Positions 15,552 to 22,009 of a stretch of DNA of 64,000 bases are shown in pieces. The stretch's first letter is position 1. Each line of letters starts with the position of its first letter. Below the pieces are notes generated by a model that ran no database searches, was not told where the DNA came from, and was given only the letters and a program-made list of their open reading frames with translations. The stretch comes from an uncultured Bacteroidota bacterium (lineage in GTDB: Bacteria > Bacteroidota > Bacteroidia > Flavobacteriales > Flavobacteriaceae). The stretch lies in the NCBI GenBank assembly GCA_902559035.1, contig CACEGG010000004.1, forward strand, positions 62,001-126,000. The letters run 5' to 3'. The position numbers and the translations under genes were made by a program.

Positions 15552-16316
15552 TTAACCTCTAATTAATTGCACAAACTTACCTATATCCTCGATTTTATTT
15601 TCTTTTAAGAAGTTTATAAAAGCAGAGCCAATTATAGCCCCATTGCTGTTTTCGATAGCATCCTTAAAAGTACTACTGTTGCTAATTCCAAATCCTATCA
15701 AAAGTTTTGATTTTAAGTTCATTTTGTTAATTCTTTTAAAATAATTTTTTTGCTCAAATCCGAAAGAATTGACTGCTCCAGTAATACTAAAACTACTAAC
15801 CATATAAATAAACCCATTTGACACTTTATCAATAAACTTTATTCTTTTGTCGCTGGTTTGAGGTGTTATTAAAAACATATTTAATAGACCGTGTTTGTCA
15901 AAAAGTGGTTTGTATTTTTTCTCATAAATATCAACAGGAAGATCAGGAATAATCATACCATCAATTCCTACATCATTACAACTTTTACAAAATTTTTCAA
16001 CACCAAATTGTAAAATAGGATTAAAGTAGCCCATAATTATAAGTGGAATGTTTGTTTTGTTTCTAATGTTTTTAAGTTGGACAAACAGATTTTCAGTATT
16101 CATTCCATTTTTTAATGCAATAGTAGAACTTTTTTGAATGGTTGGCCCATCAGCCAGAGGATCGCTAAATGGCAAGCCTATTTCAATCATATCAACATCT
16201 GACTTACTTAATTCATTTATAATTTTTTCGGTGTCATCTAAATTGGGATATCCTGCCGTAAAATATATTGAAAGTATATTTTTTTTTGTTTCTAAAACTT
16301 TATTAATTCTATTCAT
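15552..16316 (-). CDS. trpA: tryptophan synthase alpha chain
   Basis: Cleaves indole-3-glycerol phosphate to indole and glyceraldehyde-3-phosphate, passing indole to TrpB. The 254 aa contain IEIGLPFSDPLADGPTIQ, which holds the catalytic Glu and the substrate-binding Asp, and GFGISN near the C-terminus. The start is ATG at 16316, 1 nt after the trpB stop; a longer in-frame start at 16349 would lie inside trpB. It is the last gene of the trp operon. Confidence 0.96.
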   Translation of the reverse strand: MNRINKVLETKKNILSIYFTAGYPNLDDTEKIINELSKSDVDMIEIGLPFSDPLADGPTIQKSSTIALKNGMNTENLFVQLKNIRNKTNIPLIIMGYFNPILQFGVEKFCKSCNDVGIDGMIIPDLPVDIYEKKYKPLFDKHGLLNMFLITPQTSDKRIKFIDKVSNGFIYMVSSFSITGAVNSFGFEQKNYFKRINKMNLKSKLLIGFGISNSSTFKDAIENSNGAIIGSAFINFLKENKIEDIGKFVQLIRG

Positions 16317-16317
16317 T

Positions 16318-17505
16318 TTATAATTTAAAATAATCAATGTATGTATCAAGATCTTTATCTCCTCTTCCTGAACAATTAAAAACTAAAATATCATCTTTTT
16401 TAAATTTCTTTTTATCTAAAACTGCGAATGCATGAGATGTTTCAATAGCAGGAATGATTCCTTCAAGTCTTGATAGACTGAGACCCCACTCCATAGCTTC
16501 TTTATCAGTTATCGAAATAAACTCTCCACGTTTAGTTCTAAATAAATTGGCATGCATTGGACCAACGCCAGGATAATCTAAACCAGCAGAAATAGAATAA
16601 GGTTCAGTTATTTGACCATCAGTGGATTGCATTAATAATGTCTTAGCACCATGAATTATACCTTCTTTTCCAAGAATAGAGGTTGCAGCGCTCATTCCTG
16701 TATCAATTCCTTTACCGGCTGCTTCAACACAAATAATCTTTACTTTCTCGTCATCTAAATAAGGGTAAAATAATCCGGCAGCATTACTTCCTCCACCTAC
16801 ACAAGCAATAACATAACTTGGCTTTTTTGTGCCTTCTAATTCTTTGAGTTGTTTTTTTACTTCATCTCCAATTACAGATTGAAATCTTGCCACCATGTCA
16901 GGGTAAGGGTGTGGACCAACTACAGACCCAATTATATAATGAGTATCAACAGGGTTATTAATCCAATCCCTAATGGCCTCATTAGTTGCATCTTTCAATG
17001 TTTTACTTCCTGAAATTGCAGGCTTAACCTCAGCTCCCAACATTTTCATTCTAGCTACATTAGGTGCTTGTCTACTGATATCGACTTCTCCCATATAAAC
17101 AATGCATTTAATACCCATAAGTGCGCACACAGTTGCGGTAGCAACTCCGTGTTGACCAGCACCAGTTTCAGCGATTATCCTTGACTTACCAAGACGCTTT
17201 GCTAACAAAATTTGACCTATAGTATTATTGATTTTATGGGCTCCAGTGTGACAAAGATCCTCTCTCTTCAGGTAAATTTTTGTGTTGTATTTTTTAGACA
17301 GTCTTTCAGCAAAATATAGTGGTGTGGGTCTACCAACATATTGTTTTAATAATTCATTGAATTCTGATTGGAATTTTTTTTCTGAACATATATCCAAATA
17401 TTTAGACCTTAATTCTTCAATATTAGAATACATCATTTCGGGGATATAAGCTCCTCCAAAATCTCCATAATATCCCATTTTATTTACATTAAAACTAATT
17501 TTCAT
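16318..17505 (-). CDS. trpB: tryptophan synthase beta chain
   Basis: PLP enzyme that condenses indole with serine. At 395 aa it has the usual length. The PLP lysine is in HTGAHKINN near residue 90, and the phosphate-binding GGGSNAAG is near residue 238. The chosen ATG overlaps the trpF stop by 4 nt (ATGA); an in-frame ATG nine codons later (MGYYGDFGGAYIPE) is a possible alternative. Confidence 0.97.
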   Translation of the reverse strand: MKISFNVNKMGYYGDFGGAYIPEMMYSNIEELRSKYLDICSEKKFQSEFNELLKQYVGRPTPLYFAERLSKKYNTKIYLKREDLCHTGAHKINNTIGQILLAKRLGKSRIIAETGAGQHGVATATVCALMGIKCIVYMGEVDISRQAPNVARMKMLGAEVKPAISGSKTLKDATNEAIRDWINNPVDTHYIIGSVVGPHPYPDMVARFQSVIGDEVKKQLKELEGTKKPSYVIACVGGGSNAAGLFYPYLDDEKVKIICVEAAGKGIDTGMSAATSILGKEGIIHGAKTLLMQSTDGQITEPYSISAGLDYPGVGPMHANLFRTKRGEFISITDKEAMEWGLSLSRLEGIIPAIETSHAFAVLDKKKFKKDDILVFNCSGRGDKDLDTYIDYFKL

Positions 17506-18110
17506 AATGACAATTTATTTTTAAATAACTTTATTTTATCTACATCTTTTTTTAAATTTTTGAATTCAAATTTGCTATTAATATCGACTCCAATTAAAGG
17601 ATGTATTTTTTTAATTTTATTGATTTCTATAATATCCTCTAAATTAATTCCGCCACTTAAAAAAAAAGGTTTCTTTGAAGTGTAATTTTTTAGAATATTC
17701 CAATCAAATTTTATTCCAGATCCACCATGTAAATTTGATTTTGTATCAAATAAAAAATAATCAGAAACTTCTTCAAAATTTTTAGTTGTATTGAAATTAA
17801 AAGTATTATTGATTTTGAAAACTTTGATAATTTTAACAAAAGGTTTTAGTGATTTACAAAAGTCAACATTTTCATTACCATGTAACTGTACAAAGTCAAG
17901 TTTAAATTTTATAATTTTTTCTTTTATTTCTTCAATTTCTTCGTTTACAAATACTCCAACTCTATTTATCTTATCATTCAAAACCAAATCAGTTTGATCA
18001 AAGAATCTTTTAGATTTATTGTAGAAAATGAAACCCATAAAATCAGGTCTAAGACTTTCAATTTCACTTATGTTTTGAGGAAATTTCATCCCGCATACTT
18101 TTAATTTCAT
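17502..18110 (-). CDS. trpF: phosphoribosylanthranilate isomerase
   Basis: Isomerises phosphoribosylanthranilate in tryptophan synthesis; a TIM barrel of 202 aa. The catalytic Cys is in KVCGMKFPQN at the N-terminus, DFVQLHGNE is characteristic, and the catalytic Asp lies in FLFDTKS. The C-terminal GGINLEDI and VDINSKFE match the phosphate-binding loops. It overlaps trpC and trpB by 4 nt each. Confidence 0.94.
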   Translation of the reverse strand: MKLKVCGMKFPQNISEIESLRPDFMGFIFYNKSKRFFDQTDLVLNDKINRVGVFVNEEIEEIKEKIIKFKLDFVQLHGNENVDFCKSLKPFVKIIKVFKINNTFNFNTTKNFEEVSDYFLFDTKSNLHGGSGIKFDWNILKNYTSKKPFFLSGGINLEDIIEINKIKKIHPLIGVDINSKFEFKNLKKDVDKIKLFKNKLSL

Positions 18111-18889
18111 TTAATTTTACTTATTAAATCTAAAACTTCACTTCCTGGATTTTTTTTCTTCATAAAAGTTTCTCCAATTAAAAACCCTTTATAACCATAT
18201 TCTCGTAATTTGTTAATTTCAATTGAGCTTGAAATACCGCTTTCAGAAATTTTGGTGAATTCTTTTGGAATTAATCCTGACAAGTTTATGCTGGTTTTTA
18301 AATCAACTTCAAAAGTTTTTAAATTTCTGTTATTAACCCCAATTATATCAATTGACTGAATTAAGCATTTTTCAAGTTCTTTTTCATTATGAATTTCTAT
18401 TAAAACCTCTAGGCCTATACTTTTAGCCAGCTTACTAAGTTTTTTTATTTCAGTTTCGTTTAAGCATGCTGCAATCAAAAGTATAATATCAGCACCATTT
18501 GCTTTAGCTTCAATAATTTGATACTCATCAATAATAAATTCTTTTCTTAAAATAGGAATGGAAGTCATTGTTCTAGCCTCTTGTAAATCTTTCAAACTTC
18601 CTCCAAAGTAAGTATGGTCTGTTAAAACAGATATTCCACAAACATTTGCTTTGTTATATCCTTTAATTACATTTTTTAATTTTATGTTATCATTTATTAT
18701 AGACTTTGAAGGTGACTTTCTTTTATGCTCAGCAATTATTCCATGTCTGCTCAGTTCTAATCGTTCCTTTAATGAAAATGTCTGTTTTTCAAATAACTTT
18801 TTATTTTCTAAATCTTTAATGGAATTTAGACTTTTTAGAATTTTTAACTCTTTAGTTTTTGATGATATTATTTTTTCTAGAATAGTCAC
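18107..18889 (-). CDS. trpC: indole-3-glycerol phosphate synthase
   Basis: Closes the indole ring in tryptophan synthesis. About 260 aa, with the family motifs AEHKRKSPSK (catalytic Glu and Lys), ILRKEFIIDEYQI and GVNNRNLKTF. I prefer GTG at 18889, just after the trpD stop, which gives the usual N-terminus MTILEKIIS; a TTG three codons earlier (18898) would overlap trpD slightly and cannot be excluded. Confidence 0.95.
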   Translation of the reverse strand: MTILEKIISSKTKELKILKSLNSIKDLENKKLFEKQTFSLKERLELSRHGIIAEHKRKSPSKSIINDNIKLKNVIKGYNKANVCGISVLTDHTYFGGSLKDLQEARTMTSIPILRKEFIIDEYQIIEAKANGADIILLIAACLNETEIKKLSKLAKSIGLEVLIEIHNEKELEKCLIQSIDIIGVNNRNLKTFEVDLKTSINLSGLIPKEFTKISESGISSSIEINKLREYGYKGFLIGETFMKKKNPGSEVLDLISKIK

Positions 18890-18891
18890 TA

Positions 18892-19881
18892 TTAACAAAG
18901 TTTTTTCAAATTATTAAATGTTTTAAGAGCTTGGTTTGACAATAAAGATTCTTTTGCTTTTTCGATGCCTTCATTTAATGAAATTCCAAGTGCAGTTGAT
19001 ATCGCTAATCCAGAGTTGGCAAAAATCACTTCATTTTGTGAATTTGTTCCATTATTATTTAAAATATTCATAAAAATTTCAGCAGATTCTTTAATGCTAT
19101 TTCCACCTGAAATTGATTTTGGATTTGATCTAGTTAAACCCATATCATTAGGTTCATATACATTTTCTTCTTTTCTAGAAATAATTTTTGTTGCTCCGGT
19201 TAAAGAAATTTCATCGTACCCATCAAGTGAGTGAATAATAGCATAATTTTTTTTAGTTTTTTGAAACAAGTATGAATATAATCTAGCCAACTCTAAACTA
19301 TAAACTCCAACTATCTGATTTTTTGGAAAAGATGGGTTAACCAAAGGACCTAAAATATTAAAGAATGTTTTTAGACCTAATTCTTTTCTTATTGGTGCTA
19401 CATGTTTCATAGCGGGATGAAACAGGGGAGCATGTAGAATACAAATGCCGCATTTCTCAATAGATTTTCTAAGAAAATCAAAATTATTTGAAAATTTAAT
19501 TCCTAAATATTCTAAAACATTACTTGAGCCACAAGATGAAGAAACTCCATAATTTCCGTGTTTAGTAACATTAACACCTGCTCCAGCAGTCACAAATGCA
19601 GATAATGTAGATATATTAAAGGTATCTTTATTATCTCCACCTGTTCCACATAAATCAATAGCATTATATTCTGAAAGGTCAACCTTAATGCATAATTCTA
19701 GAAGAGCTTCTTTAAAACCCTCTAATTCTTGTAATGAAATATTTCTCATCATAAATACAGTCAGAAAAGAGCTTACGTGACTATTATTGTATTTACCTTT
19801 AGAAATATTAATTAAAATATTTTTAGCTTCATTTTTTGATAAAGTTCTGTGTAAGCTTAAATTATTAATTATGTCTTTCAT
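18892..19881 (-). CDS. trpD: anthranilate phosphoribosyltransferase
   Basis: Transfers phosphoribose from PRPP to anthranilate. The 329 aa contain the signature CGTGGDNKDTFNIST near residues 78-92, the KHGNYGVSSSCG segment, and GPLVNPS. It is not fused to the TrpG glutaminase, unlike the E. coli protein. Its start shares one base with the trpG stop. Confidence 0.96.
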   Translation of the reverse strand: MKDIINNLSLHRTLSKNEAKNILINISKGKYNNSHVSSFLTVFMMRNISLQELEGFKEALLELCIKVDLSEYNAIDLCGTGGDNKDTFNISTLSAFVTAGAGVNVTKHGNYGVSSSCGSSNVLEYLGIKFSNNFDFLRKSIEKCGICILHAPLFHPAMKHVAPIRKELGLKTFFNILGPLVNPSFPKNQIVGVYSLELARLYSYLFQKTKKNYAIIHSLDGYDEISLTGATKIISRKEENVYEPNDMGLTRSNPKSISGGNSIKESAEIFMNILNNNGTNSQNEVIFANSGLAISTALGISLNEGIEKAKESLLSNQALKTFNNLKKLC

Positions 19882-20450
19882 TAATTTAGTTTTAACCAGT
19901 TTTTTAGAAGTTCTTTTCCTTGTTCAGTCAAAATTGATTCAGGATGAAATTGAACTCCTCTGATGTTATATTCTTTATGTTTGATTGCCATTATCTGATT
20001 GTTTTCGTCAAAGGCCAAAATTTCAAGACAATCAGGGATTGGCTCTTCAACTACCCAAGAGTGATATCTTCCAACGTTTAATGGATTAGAAAGTCCATCG
20101 AAGATAAGATCTTCTTTAACTACATTTATTTTGCTAGCAACACCGTGATAAACTTCTTTAAGATTTTTGAGCTTTCCTCCATAGACTTCAGCTATAGCTT
20201 GATGACCAAGACAGACTCCTAAAATCTTTTTTTTGGATCCAAAATGTGAAATAATTTTTTTTAAATCTCCAGCTTCATTAGGAATTCCTGGTCCAGGCGA
20301 TAATACAATCATATCAAACTTTTCAATTTCTTTTAAGCTAACCTCATCATTTCTTTTTACGGTTACTTTACATCCTAGTTCTTCAAAGTAATGAACTAAG
20401 TTATAAGTGAATGAATCGTAATTATCAATAACTATTAATTTCATAATCAA
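19881..20450 (-). CDS. trpG: anthranilate synthase component II (glutamine amidotransferase)
   Basis: Class I glutaminase that supplies ammonia to TrpE. The 189 aa hold LSPGPGIP, the nucleophile Cys in LGVCLGHQAI, and the His-Glu pair in VQFHPES. The start overlaps the trpE stop by 4 nt; ATG two codons later is also possible. Its position directly after trpE supports tryptophan rather than folate synthesis. Confidence 0.95.
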   Translation of the reverse strand: MIMKLIVIDNYDSFTYNLVHYFEELGCKVTVKRNDEVSLKEIEKFDMIVLSPGPGIPNEAGDLKKIISHFGSKKKILGVCLGHQAIAEVYGGKLKNLKEVYHGVASKINVVKEDLIFDGLSNPLNVGRYHSWVVEEPIPDCLEILAFDENNQIMAIKHKEYNIRGVQFHPESILTEQGKELLKNWLKLN

Positions 20451-21841
20451 ATTTTTTCAGCGAGATCTAGAGCTTTAATAAGAGCTCCAAGTTTATTATT
20501 TATCTCTTGTAATTCACTTTTTGGATCAGATTTTGAAACAATTCCAGCACCTGCTTGAAAAATTAGTTCATGATTTTTACTAAGAAAAGATCGAATTATA
20601 ATAGCATGATTGAAATTTCCCTCAAAATCCATAAATCCAATAGCTCCCCCGTAAAAGGATCTATTGCTATTTTCATATTTCGAAATTAATTGCATGGCTT
20701 TATGTTTAGGTGCACCTGAAAGTGTGCCTGCTGGGAATGTATCAGCAACTATTTGAAATGTAGAAGAATTGTTTTTTTTCTCCGCAGTAACTTTGGAAAC
20801 TAAATGAATGACGTGAGAATAAAATTGTATTTCTCTATCTTTTTCAACCTTTACATTATTTCCATTTCTGCTTAAATCATTTCTAGCTAAATCAACAAGC
20901 ATCATGTGCTCACTATTCTCTTTTTGATCCACAGCCAATTTTTTTGCTTTTATTGAATCTTCAATATCGTTTCCTGTTCTTATAAATGTACCTGCTATTG
21001 GATGAATTTCAGCCTTACTATTTTTAACAACAAGCTGTGCTTCCGGGGAGCTTCCAAAAATTTTATAGCCTCCGTAATCAAAATAAAAAAGGTAAGGTGA
21101 AGGATTTATTGATCTTAATGCTCTATATAAATTAAATTCATCACCCTCAAAAGATTGTTTAAATTTTCTAGAAAGAACAATTTGAAATACATCGCCTCTT
21201 TTACAATGTTTGATTCCTTTTTTAACTAAATCAACATATTCGTTGTCTTTTAAATTGGATGTAATGTTACCGGATTTATGAAAATCAAATTTTGATATTT
21301 TATTAGATTTAAGAAGTTCTTCAATTTCTTTTAAATTATTTTTTTGATTAAAGCTGTGATGAAGCAATAAAGCTTCATTATTGAATACATTAATAATGAT
21401 TATGTTTGAATAAAAGGCATAAAAAATCTCAGGTATTTTTATATCATTTTCTTTTTCCTGAAAATTAATATTTTCGAGATGTTCTACGGCATCATAATTA
21501 ATGTAACCAATCAAACCATTTTCAAAAAATTTTGCATCAGATTTTTCTGTTTGAAAAATTTTCAAATAATCATCTAGTTCATTAACAACTAAATTAGTTT
21601 TTGTCAATTTAGTTTGTTGAGTTGAATTGTCTGGATATTTTTTTTCAATTAAATTATTGTAAACTTTAAATGATGATATTGGGTTGAAACATACGTAAGC
21701 ATAACTGTTATCATTGGCACCATAATCACTACTTTCTAACAAGACAGAGTTTGAGTATTTATCTCTAATTTTTTGATAGATACTGACTGGAGTTAAAGTA
21801 TCAGCAAGAATTTTTTTTCTGTATGTTTTGATTTTATACAC
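20447..21841 (-). CDS. trpE: anthranilate synthase component I
   Basis: Makes anthranilate from chorismate and ammonia. The 464 aa include the allosteric Trp-binding motif LLESSDY near residue 35, so feedback inhibition is expected, and the chorismate-binding C-terminal domain (PIAGTFIRTG, DLARNDLSRNG, PAGTLSGAPK, GGAIGFMDF). Translation starts at GTG 21841. The start codon lies 15 nt after the T-run of the attenuator terminator, so the whole operon is controlled by read-through. Confidence 0.96.
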   Translation of the reverse strand: MYKIKTYRKKILADTLTPVSIYQKIRDKYSNSVLLESSDYGANDNSYAYVCFNPISSFKVYNNLIEKKYPDNSTQQTKLTKTNLVVNELDDYLKIFQTEKSDAKFFENGLIGYINYDAVEHLENINFQEKENDIKIPEIFYAFYSNIIIINVFNNEALLLHHSFNQKNNLKEIEELLKSNKISKFDFHKSGNITSNLKDNEYVDLVKKGIKHCKRGDVFQIVLSRKFKQSFEGDEFNLYRALRSINPSPYLFYFDYGGYKIFGSSPEAQLVVKNSKAEIHPIAGTFIRTGNDIEDSIKAKKLAVDQKENSEHMMLVDLARNDLSRNGNNVKVEKDREIQFYSHVIHLVSKVTAEKKNNSSTFQIVADTFPAGTLSGAPKHKAMQLISKYENSNRSFYGGAIGFMDFEGNFNHAIIIRSFLSKNHELIFQAGAGIVSKSDPKSELQEINNKLGALIKALDLAEKI

Positions 21842-21856
21842 TGTCTTTTTTAAATT

Positions 21857-21886
21857 AAAAAAGGCTTGTCGATTAACAAGCCTTTT
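21857..21886 (-). terminator. trp attenuator terminator (regions 3:4)
   Basis: On the minus-strand RNA a perfect 11-bp stem (AAAAGGCUUGU with ACAAGCCUUUU) encloses a 6-nt loop and runs into six U residues. It is a textbook intrinsic terminator placed between the Trp-rich leader peptide and trpE. Region 3 can instead pair with region 2 at 21910-21918. Confidence 0.9.
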
Positions 21887-21937
21887 ATTATTTACTATAA
21901 ACTAAAAGAGTTATCGACTTAATGAAAATTAAGCGAT
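21868..21937 (-). promoter_or_regulatory. trp leader RNA: anti-antiterminator (1:2) and antiterminator (2:3)
   Basis: Region 1 (AUCGCUUAAU, 21928-21937) pairs with region 2 (AUUAAGUCGAU, 21913-21923) around a UUUC loop with one bulge. Region 2 can alternatively use GUCGAUAAC (21910-21918) to pair with GUUAAUCGAC (21868-21877, one bulge), which takes up the terminator loop and both stem tops. A ribosome stalled at the two Trp codons would cover the start of region 1 and favour 2:3; a ribosome at the leader stop codon would mask region 2 and allow 3:4. This is the classical attenuation geometry. Confidence 0.85.
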
Positions 21938-21969
21938 TGCCACCAATTAGTATTTAATTTTAAATTCAT
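21919..21969 (-). CDS. trpL: trp operon leader peptide
   Basis: A 16-codon frame, ATG to TAA, encoding MNLKLNTNWWQSLNFH. Two consecutive TGG Trp codons are codons 9 and 10 (21940-21945). It lies between a perfect promoter and a terminator hairpin upstream of trpE. The peptide itself is not expected to have a function; ribosome progress over the Trp codons is the signal. The ATG is only 8 nt from the -7 box, so the mRNA has nearly no 5' UTR. Confidence 0.88.
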   Translation of the reverse strand: MNLKLNTNWWQSLNFH

Positions 21970-21977
21970 AATCATTT

Positions 21978-22009
21978 CAAATATAGCAACGAAAATTATA
22001 GATTACAAA
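21978..22009 (-). promoter_or_regulatory. trp operon promoter
   Basis: Minus strand: -33 TTTG (22006-22009), 20-nt spacer, -7 TATATTTG (21978-21985). Both boxes and the spacing fit the Bacteroidota housekeeping sigma consensus. Transcription should start about 4 nt before the leader ATG at 21969. Confidence 0.8.

Follow-up and report, generated by a model that had tools for sequence, protein, structure and literature searches.

Comparative analysis of a Bacteroid-trp (RF01692) attenuator upstream of a Flavobacteriaceae trp operon

In Escherichia coli, the trp attenuator relies on two Trp codons in a leader peptide, on three mutually exclusive helices (1:2, 2:3 and 3:4) and on a stop codon placed near region 2, which pairs with the ascending arm of the terminator. 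Attenuators usually work by a kinetic mechanism. Leaderless attenuator leaders are known from other phyla: the trp leader RNA of S. meliloti, whose transcription begins at the AUG, is active in trans (PMC7298713), and the leader of the C. glutamicum ilvBNC attenuator is leaderless (PMC11857589). In Bacteroidota, the motif called Bacteroid-trp was listed by Weinberg et al. in 2010 as a Bacteroidetes cis-regulatory candidate (PMC2864571), a 2019 paper recorded this motif before the trp operon of F. psychrophilum and likened it to the E. coli attenuator (PMC6414381), and a 2021 transcriptome of the same species presented strong clues to leader-peptide attenuation before amino-acid operons (PMC9723704). 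According to the latter, the F. psychrophilum -7 box (TAnnTTTG) spans positions -12 to -5, 5.5% of the mRNAs are leaderless, the median 5'UTR measures 24 nt, and the mRNAs of the group lack Shine-Dalgarno sequences; in B. thetaiotaomicron, about 3.7% of the 5'UTRs are shorter than 10 nt (PMC7366714). No description of an antiterminator or of a leaderless leader for Bacteroid-trp was found in the available text of openly licensed papers, which is weak evidence of absence.

The trp element of the window and its family

The window (the whole stretch of 64,000 nucleotides analysed here) carries on its minus strand, at 21857-22009, a trp attenuator with all its parts present, immediately 5' of trpEGDCFBA. 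The element is real and beyond chance: the full RF01692 model aligns to it at 61.3 bits, above its gathering score of 49 (E 4.6e-05, whole window searched), and its 114-nt leader folds at -26.2 kcal/mol, with a z-score of -4.86 and none of 200 shuffles equally stable. The features are the following.

22006..22009, minus strand: -33 element TTTG, read from the sequence with the consensus of PMC7366714
21978..21985, minus strand: -7 element TATATTTG, read from the sequence with the box position of PMC9723704
21875..21992, minus strand: match to RF01692 (Bacteroid-trp), model positions 1-131
21919..21969, minus strand: leader ORF MNLKLNTNWWQSLNFH with stop TAA, read from the sequence and from the tandem Trp codons of relatives
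21940..21945, minus strand: two adjacent, regulatory Trp codons (TGG TGG), read from the sequence
21928..21937, minus strand: region 1, 5' strand of hairpin 1:2, beginning 2 nt past the last Trp codon
21913..21923, minus strand: region 2, 3' strand of hairpin 1:2, with the stop codon in its 5' part
21913..21918, minus strand: antiterminator 5' strand GUCGAU within region 2, from pairing search and alignment
21887..21912, minus strand: linker, 3' strand of the outer stem in the Rfam consensus, pairing with the Trp-codon segment when untranslated
21857..21886, minus strand: intrinsic terminator AAAAGGCTTGT-TAATCG-ACAAGCCTTTTTT, 30 bases, from sequence reading, alignment and fold
21868..21873, minus strand: antiterminator 3' strand AUCGAC (terminator loop and top of the descending arm), from pairing search and alignment
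20447..21841, minus strand: trpE with GTG start, Anth_synt_I_N and Chorismate_bind above cut-off
19881..20450, minus strand: trpG, NCBIfam cut-off passed
18892..19881, minus strand: trpD, NCBIfam cut-off passed
18107..18898, minus strand: trpC, NCBIfam cut-off passed
17502..18110, minus strand: trpF, top NCBIfam match under its curated cut-off
16318..17505, minus strand: trpB, PALP family match, assigned as TrpB by position and sequence
15552..16349, minus strand: trpA, last gene of the operon

The genes follow the order trpE-G-D-C-F-B-A with successive genes overlapping one another, and 15 nt separate the end of the terminator from the trpE GTG (21841); the top NCBIfam match of trpE, trpE_most, stays under its curated cut-off. 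A first-pass annotation, made from the sequence alone, had announced the promoter TTTG-N20-TATATTTG, a leader of 16 codons, two of them neighbouring Trp codons, the GTG start of trpE 15 nt past the terminator and the complete operon, and each of these is read in the window as announced. On the plus strand, a divergent gene for a rhodanese-domain protein (PF00581, 22044-22352) starts 35 nt from the trp -33 box.

The element agrees with RF01692 in sequence and structure, in its Bacteroidota host, in its position (15 nt 5' of trpE, the family being found before trp genes) and in the consecutive Trp codons of the leader ORF (NWWQ). It is the sole RF01692 match in its own genome (88.6% complete), and it is a sound addition to a family already on record rather than a novel type of element. 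The first-pass annotation regarded such circuits as best known from Proteobacteria and a clean case here as noteworthy; that novelty was overstated, since the kind is already held in Rfam as RF01692 and attenuation had been deduced in F. psychrophilum (PMC6414381; PMC9723704). What is new here, from comparison of loci, is detail on the antiterminator pairing and on the start position of the leader in Bacteroid-trp.

In a sample of 199 genomes of the family, 141 have an RF01692 match (E <= 0.001), 123 of them above the cut-off, and at the same E value matches occur in 24 of 148 genomes of the order, 27 of 395 of the class and 30 of 296 of the phylum, these samples overlapping one another. The closest named TrpE relatives of the window are Flavobacteriaceae or Bacteroidetes MAGs. 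A TrpE search was run on 20 of the 58 family genomes without an RF01692 match; 14 of the 20 hold a close TrpE relative (at least 50% identity, E <= 1e-135), and a tandem-Trp leader with a terminator was seen by eye at 12 of these 14 loci, so the real share of the family that carries the attenuator exceeds 141/199. The remaining two are L257, interrupted by a contig end, and L261, which shows none. One genome of the same genus (G004) has no RF01692 match and yet its trpE locus, L248, displays the same architecture by eye. In a scan of ten sources, three of nine trp sources reached the RF01692 cut-off and six fell below it; L142, L145, L148, L150 and L248 have the same architecture despite missing the cut-off in that scan. 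The model itself stops in the ascending terminator arm (position 131), leaving the terminator loop and the antiterminator outside.

As to gene context, inspection by eye of the first part of the frame places the element before a trpB-like frame and not before trpE at L228, L279, L282, L283, L285-L287 and L294, which belong to other orders of the class plus one other family of the same order (L279). At L280 (G199), two TGGTGG leaders stand seemingly in tandem, the second just past the first terminator.

Leader peptide and its predicted start

Since the RF01692 model itself includes Trp codons, the 80 loci picked as closest by TrpE similarity alone are of particular value as an independent set; the joint set comprises 216 loci, of which 207 are distinct, nine elements being identical across sets. 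Adjacent Trp codons occur in all 141 RF01692 loci (WWW in 136 and WW in five, the window among the latter), and at least two adjacent Trp codons occur in 75 of the 80 TrpE-selected loci within a short ORF at most 420 nt upstream, three of them in 65 loci; the other five lack adjacent Trp codons under the ORF criterion used. The leader ATG of the window lies at 21967-21969 and its TAA at 21919-21921 (minus strand, 16 codons), and region 2 begins between -10 and +9 nt of the leader stop in 208 of 210 loci (search range to stop +14). The first-pass annotation had named, among its refuting conditions, a lack of conservation of the leader peptide or of the pairing among relatives; the tandem-Trp leader recurs, and compensatory changes are seen in the helices of the terminator and the antiterminator.

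The leader is preceded by a promoter of the Bacteroidota type. In the window, TTTG is separated from TATATTTG by 20 nt and TATATTTG from the leader ATG by 8 nt. Of the 135 RF01692 loci with an ATG start, 131 have a perfect TAnnTTTG box ending at most 40 nt before it, compared with 158 of 4847 control windows of 48 nt; six of the 141 loci have no ATG and would start at GTG or TTG. At 201 of 203 loci, the first ATG 3' of the box shares the reading frame of the Trp codons, with the proviso that boxes were selected for having an in-frame ATG. If the -7 box spans -12 to -5, the transcript of the window is predicted to begin near 21973, and a second in-frame ATG (21973-21975), only 2 nt past the -7 box, probably lies 5' of the transcript start.

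Taking the predicted 5'UTR as the box-to-ATG spacing minus 4, the window (spacing 8) would have a 5'UTR of about 4 nt, and among loci with a perfect box and an ATG the predicted 5'UTR is shorter than 10 nt in 60 of 132 RF01692 loci and 51 of 71 TrpE-selected loci. The spacing is bimodal, with a peak at 5 and a second one at 16-19. For the 11 nearest named relatives, with TrpE identities of 72-82%, the spacing is 4 at eight loci (L142, L143, L145-L149, L151), 5 at L144 and L161, and 7 at L150. The leader AUG stands 3-9 nt past the -7 box in 96 of 203 loci (47 RF01692 and 49 TrpE-selected), so that the near-leaderless arrangement remarked on in the first-pass annotation turns out to be recurrent without being universal. 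Because the spacing is so short, a nearly or fully leaderless message is predicted, with the leader peptide probably beginning almost at its 5' end. A leaderless attenuator leader would be shared with S. meliloti trpL and C. glutamicum ilvBNC (PMC7298713; PMC11857589), which belong to other phyla; the start here is a predicted one.

Alternative helices and predicted switching

Hairpin 1:2, which the first-pass annotation listed, is found in the window, 21928-21937 pairing with 21913-21923 in 10 bp with one bulged U. A hairpin 1:2 overlapping region 2 by at least 3 nt is present at 205 of 207 loci, a count without shuffle comparison, and region 1 starts between -3 and +10 nt from the last Trp codon in those 205 loci. 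In a fixed register on the 70-locus alignment, the helix is paired at 57.5%, 448 of 500 shuffles equal its count of two-sided changes and a version slid by -3 scores higher, so that the fixed-register helix does not outscore its slid control. The picture for hairpin 1:2 is mixed, and its register seems to vary among loci. In the free full-length minimum-energy fold, the Trp-codon segment pairs with the linker in 203 of 208 loci.

A terminator stands 3' of the leader stop in 210 of the 216 loci; of the six others, L036 is interrupted by a contig end and L074, L089, L095, L120 and L183 failed the criteria. On the alignment it is paired at 100%; two-sided changes occur at 7 of its 12 pairs, a count that none of 500 shuffles attains, but the variety of pair types is unremarkable, since 114 of 500 shuffles equal it. 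Its loop is unusually conserved, mostly ATTCAC, ATCAC or AATCAC before GACAAGCC. The "perfect 11-bp terminator with a U6 tail" of the first-pass annotation stands as a terminator; the stem and the tail share four U's, and it is better described as a 7-bp G+C-containing core followed by U6.

The alternative helix 2:3 was also correctly proposed, its partner being left unstated: region 2 pairs, as compensatory changes across the loci indicate, with the loop of the terminator together with the upper part of its descending arm. This helix reaches at least 5 bp in 207 of 210 loci, at least 6 bp in 196 and at least 7 bp in 166, and shuffled versions of region 2 equal the observed score in 4.2% of the trials. 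The three loci without a 5-bp helix in the stretch searched are L016, where an early stop shortened the range, L135 and L159. The commonest version is UCGUGA:UCACGA and that of the window GUCGAU:AUCGAC; other types are UCGCGA:UCGCGA (L148, L149, L151), GUCGAUAA:UUAUCGAC (L144, L161) and UCGUAAAC:GUUUACGA (L139), with a 10-bp version at L102 and the further compensatory types UUGUCGCAAU:AUUGCGACAA and GUCGUAAG:CUUACGAC. On the 70-locus alignment, the antiterminator is paired at 85.1%, with two-sided changes at 5 of 7 pairs (2 of 500 shuffles), 19 two-sided-change cells and a covariation score of 0.175 (0 of 500 for each), and 12 further pair types (8 of 500), counts that are not probabilities because shuffles discard relatedness; slid versions go no higher than 53.7% paired and a score of 0.108. 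Covariation among relatives, which the first-pass annotation had named as the check on its pairings, is therefore borne out for helices 2:3 and 3:4, along with the tandem TGG, while helix 1:2 in a fixed register does not rise above its slid control. As a general rule for the 210 loci, a helix between region 2 and the ascending arm was rejected, since shuffles match it in 66% of the trials, compared with 4% for the loop and descending arm. By eye, region 2 seems to pair with the loop and ascending arm at L258 (same family) and L288, with the ascending arm alone at L245, L278 and L290, and with the descending side, as in the window, at L228 and L294 (same class, another order).

Switching was followed in predicted nascent folds that keep the 3' arm of the terminator inside the polymerase. 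A stalled ribosome was represented by masking everything up to 10 nt beyond the last Trp codon, or only as far as region 2 where that comes first. The antiterminator is then predicted at 205 of 208 loci with a stalled ribosome, compared with 32 of 208 when no ribosome is present; with the ribosome at the stop the number is zero because region 2 is masked by construction. The loop is paired to some upstream base in the stalled state at all 208 loci compared with 250 of 1040 shuffles, and the loop together with the ascending arm at 208 of 208 compared with 873 of 4160. It is unlikely that the complementarity of region 2 to the loop merely mirrors region 1, which resembles the loop, and that the true antiterminator is formed by the linker and the ascending arm: this latter pairing looked universal, the ascending arm being paired upstream in the stalled folds of all 208 loci, but it is unspecific (2805 of 4160 shuffles do the same), whereas pairing of the loop is both specific and covarying. 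The antiterminator formed by region 2 with the loop and descending arm shares bases with the terminator, and the two are mutually exclusive in the predicted folds as well. In the free full-length fold, region 2 is paired upstream in 206 of 208 loci. Even when the ribosome is stalled, the full-length minimum-energy fold prefers the terminator over the antiterminator at 203 of 208 loci, which speaks against a plain equilibrium switch, so antitermination would have to be kinetic in this model; in the window, the stalled nascent antiterminator is predicted at -11.3 kcal/mol and the finished terminator at -14.8 kcal/mol, and at L102 the antiterminator wins outright.

Taken as a whole, the element of the window is very probably a ribosome-mediated transcription attenuator of the trp operon and a member of RF01692, the reading of the first-pass annotation that conservation supports best, with its Trp leaders and covarying helices. 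Transcription would begin only a few nucleotides 5' of the leader AUG, so that the ribosome would initiate on an almost leaderless message. When charged tRNA-Trp is scarce, the ribosome would stall at the two Trp codons and cover region 1, and the freed region 2 (GUCGAU) could then pair with the emerging loop and top of the descending arm (AUCGAC), so that the terminator could not zip up and trpEGDCFBA would be transcribed. With plentiful Trp, the ribosome would reach the stop at region 2 and cover this region, the terminator would form and transcription would end; if there is no translation, hairpin 1:2 and the outer stem would hold region 2 and the terminator would form as well. The leader, its codons, the position of the stop, the terminator and the antiterminator helix are drawn from comparison, and the start site, the stalling, the direction of the response and the kinetics we infer.

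Such a circuit shares with that of E. coli the two Trp codons, the mutually exclusive helices and the stop near region 2, and differs in the target of region 2, which is the loop and descending arm here and the ascending arm there. The "classical" layout of the first-pass annotation accordingly stands for the Trp codons 2 nt before region 1 and for the stop at region 2, and the label is inexact because the antiterminator uses the terminator loop. Additionally, the Bacteroidota leader is predicted to be near-leaderless, unlike that of E. coli, in a group described as devoid of Shine-Dalgarno sequences (PMC9723704).

Attenuation might be combined with a terminated leader RNA or peptide acting in trans, by analogy with rnTrpL/peTrpL of S. 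meliloti, whose trp leader RNA also starts at its AUG (PMC7298713) in an arrangement similar to that found here; the bases just 5' of the Trp codons are conserved too, but the outer stem accounts for the conservation of that segment, and we judge this addition very improbable. Least probable of all is that uncharged tRNA (as in a T-box) or a protein, and not a stalled ribosome, reads the switch: a structured leader with a terminator, as seen in the window, is common to all such systems, yet at gathering score no Rfam T-box or riboswitch model hits the element, and no T-box is among the window's six Rfam matches, the sub-threshold Rfam matches are small RNA and microRNA families far under their cut-offs, and in-frame tandem Trp codons with a stop at region 2 are conserved, as is the frame of the first ATG past the box, subject to the choice of box given above.

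Further candidates and significance of the proposed design

When the whole window was searched for other leaders of this layout (ORFs of 6-45 codons with an ATG start, lying 3-13 nt past a perfect -7 box and followed by a terminator), only the trp leader was recovered. Elsewhere in the same genome, a Phe-rich leader, MNRNYFFQSFYFFFYFEEETGPFYI, lies upstream of pheA on contig C3 (L295), 16 nt past a TAnnTTTG box and with a terminator-like repeat between it and pheA; judged from sequence, it is likely a Phe attenuator. PMC9723704 also notes that in Flavobacteriaceae pheA is preceded by a conserved 5' element. On contig C20 (L296), a terminator-like inverted repeat directly precedes ilvD, with no clear leader ORF. 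The hisG gene was considered as another candidate for an attenuated operon, and no PF01634 match was found in the genome (G000, 88.6% complete), which reflects either missing histidine synthesis or an assembly gap.

Loci inspected by eye, in which region 2 seems to catch the loop with the descending arm in most Flavobacteriaceae and the ascending side elsewhere, offer a lead that the antiterminator may have changed sides while the logic of the switch stayed the same. It is a tentative proposal, and one we hold at somewhat less than even confidence, that the trp attenuators of Bacteroidota make up a distinct design in which a leaderless leader would load ribosomes at the 5' end and a loop-catching antiterminator would have changed sides under the same logic. 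The analysis supplies a pairing model for a family whose descriptions, in the openly available text of PMC2864571 and PMC6414381, were of an in-silico motif only. The RF01692 model could be extended, and such an extension should recover loci that are now missed. In this group, whose mRNAs have no Shine-Dalgarno sequences, attenuation seems to depend on ribosomes initiating close to the 5' end, and if the loop-catching antiterminator is true, terminator hairpins would be controllable without hiding their ascending arm.
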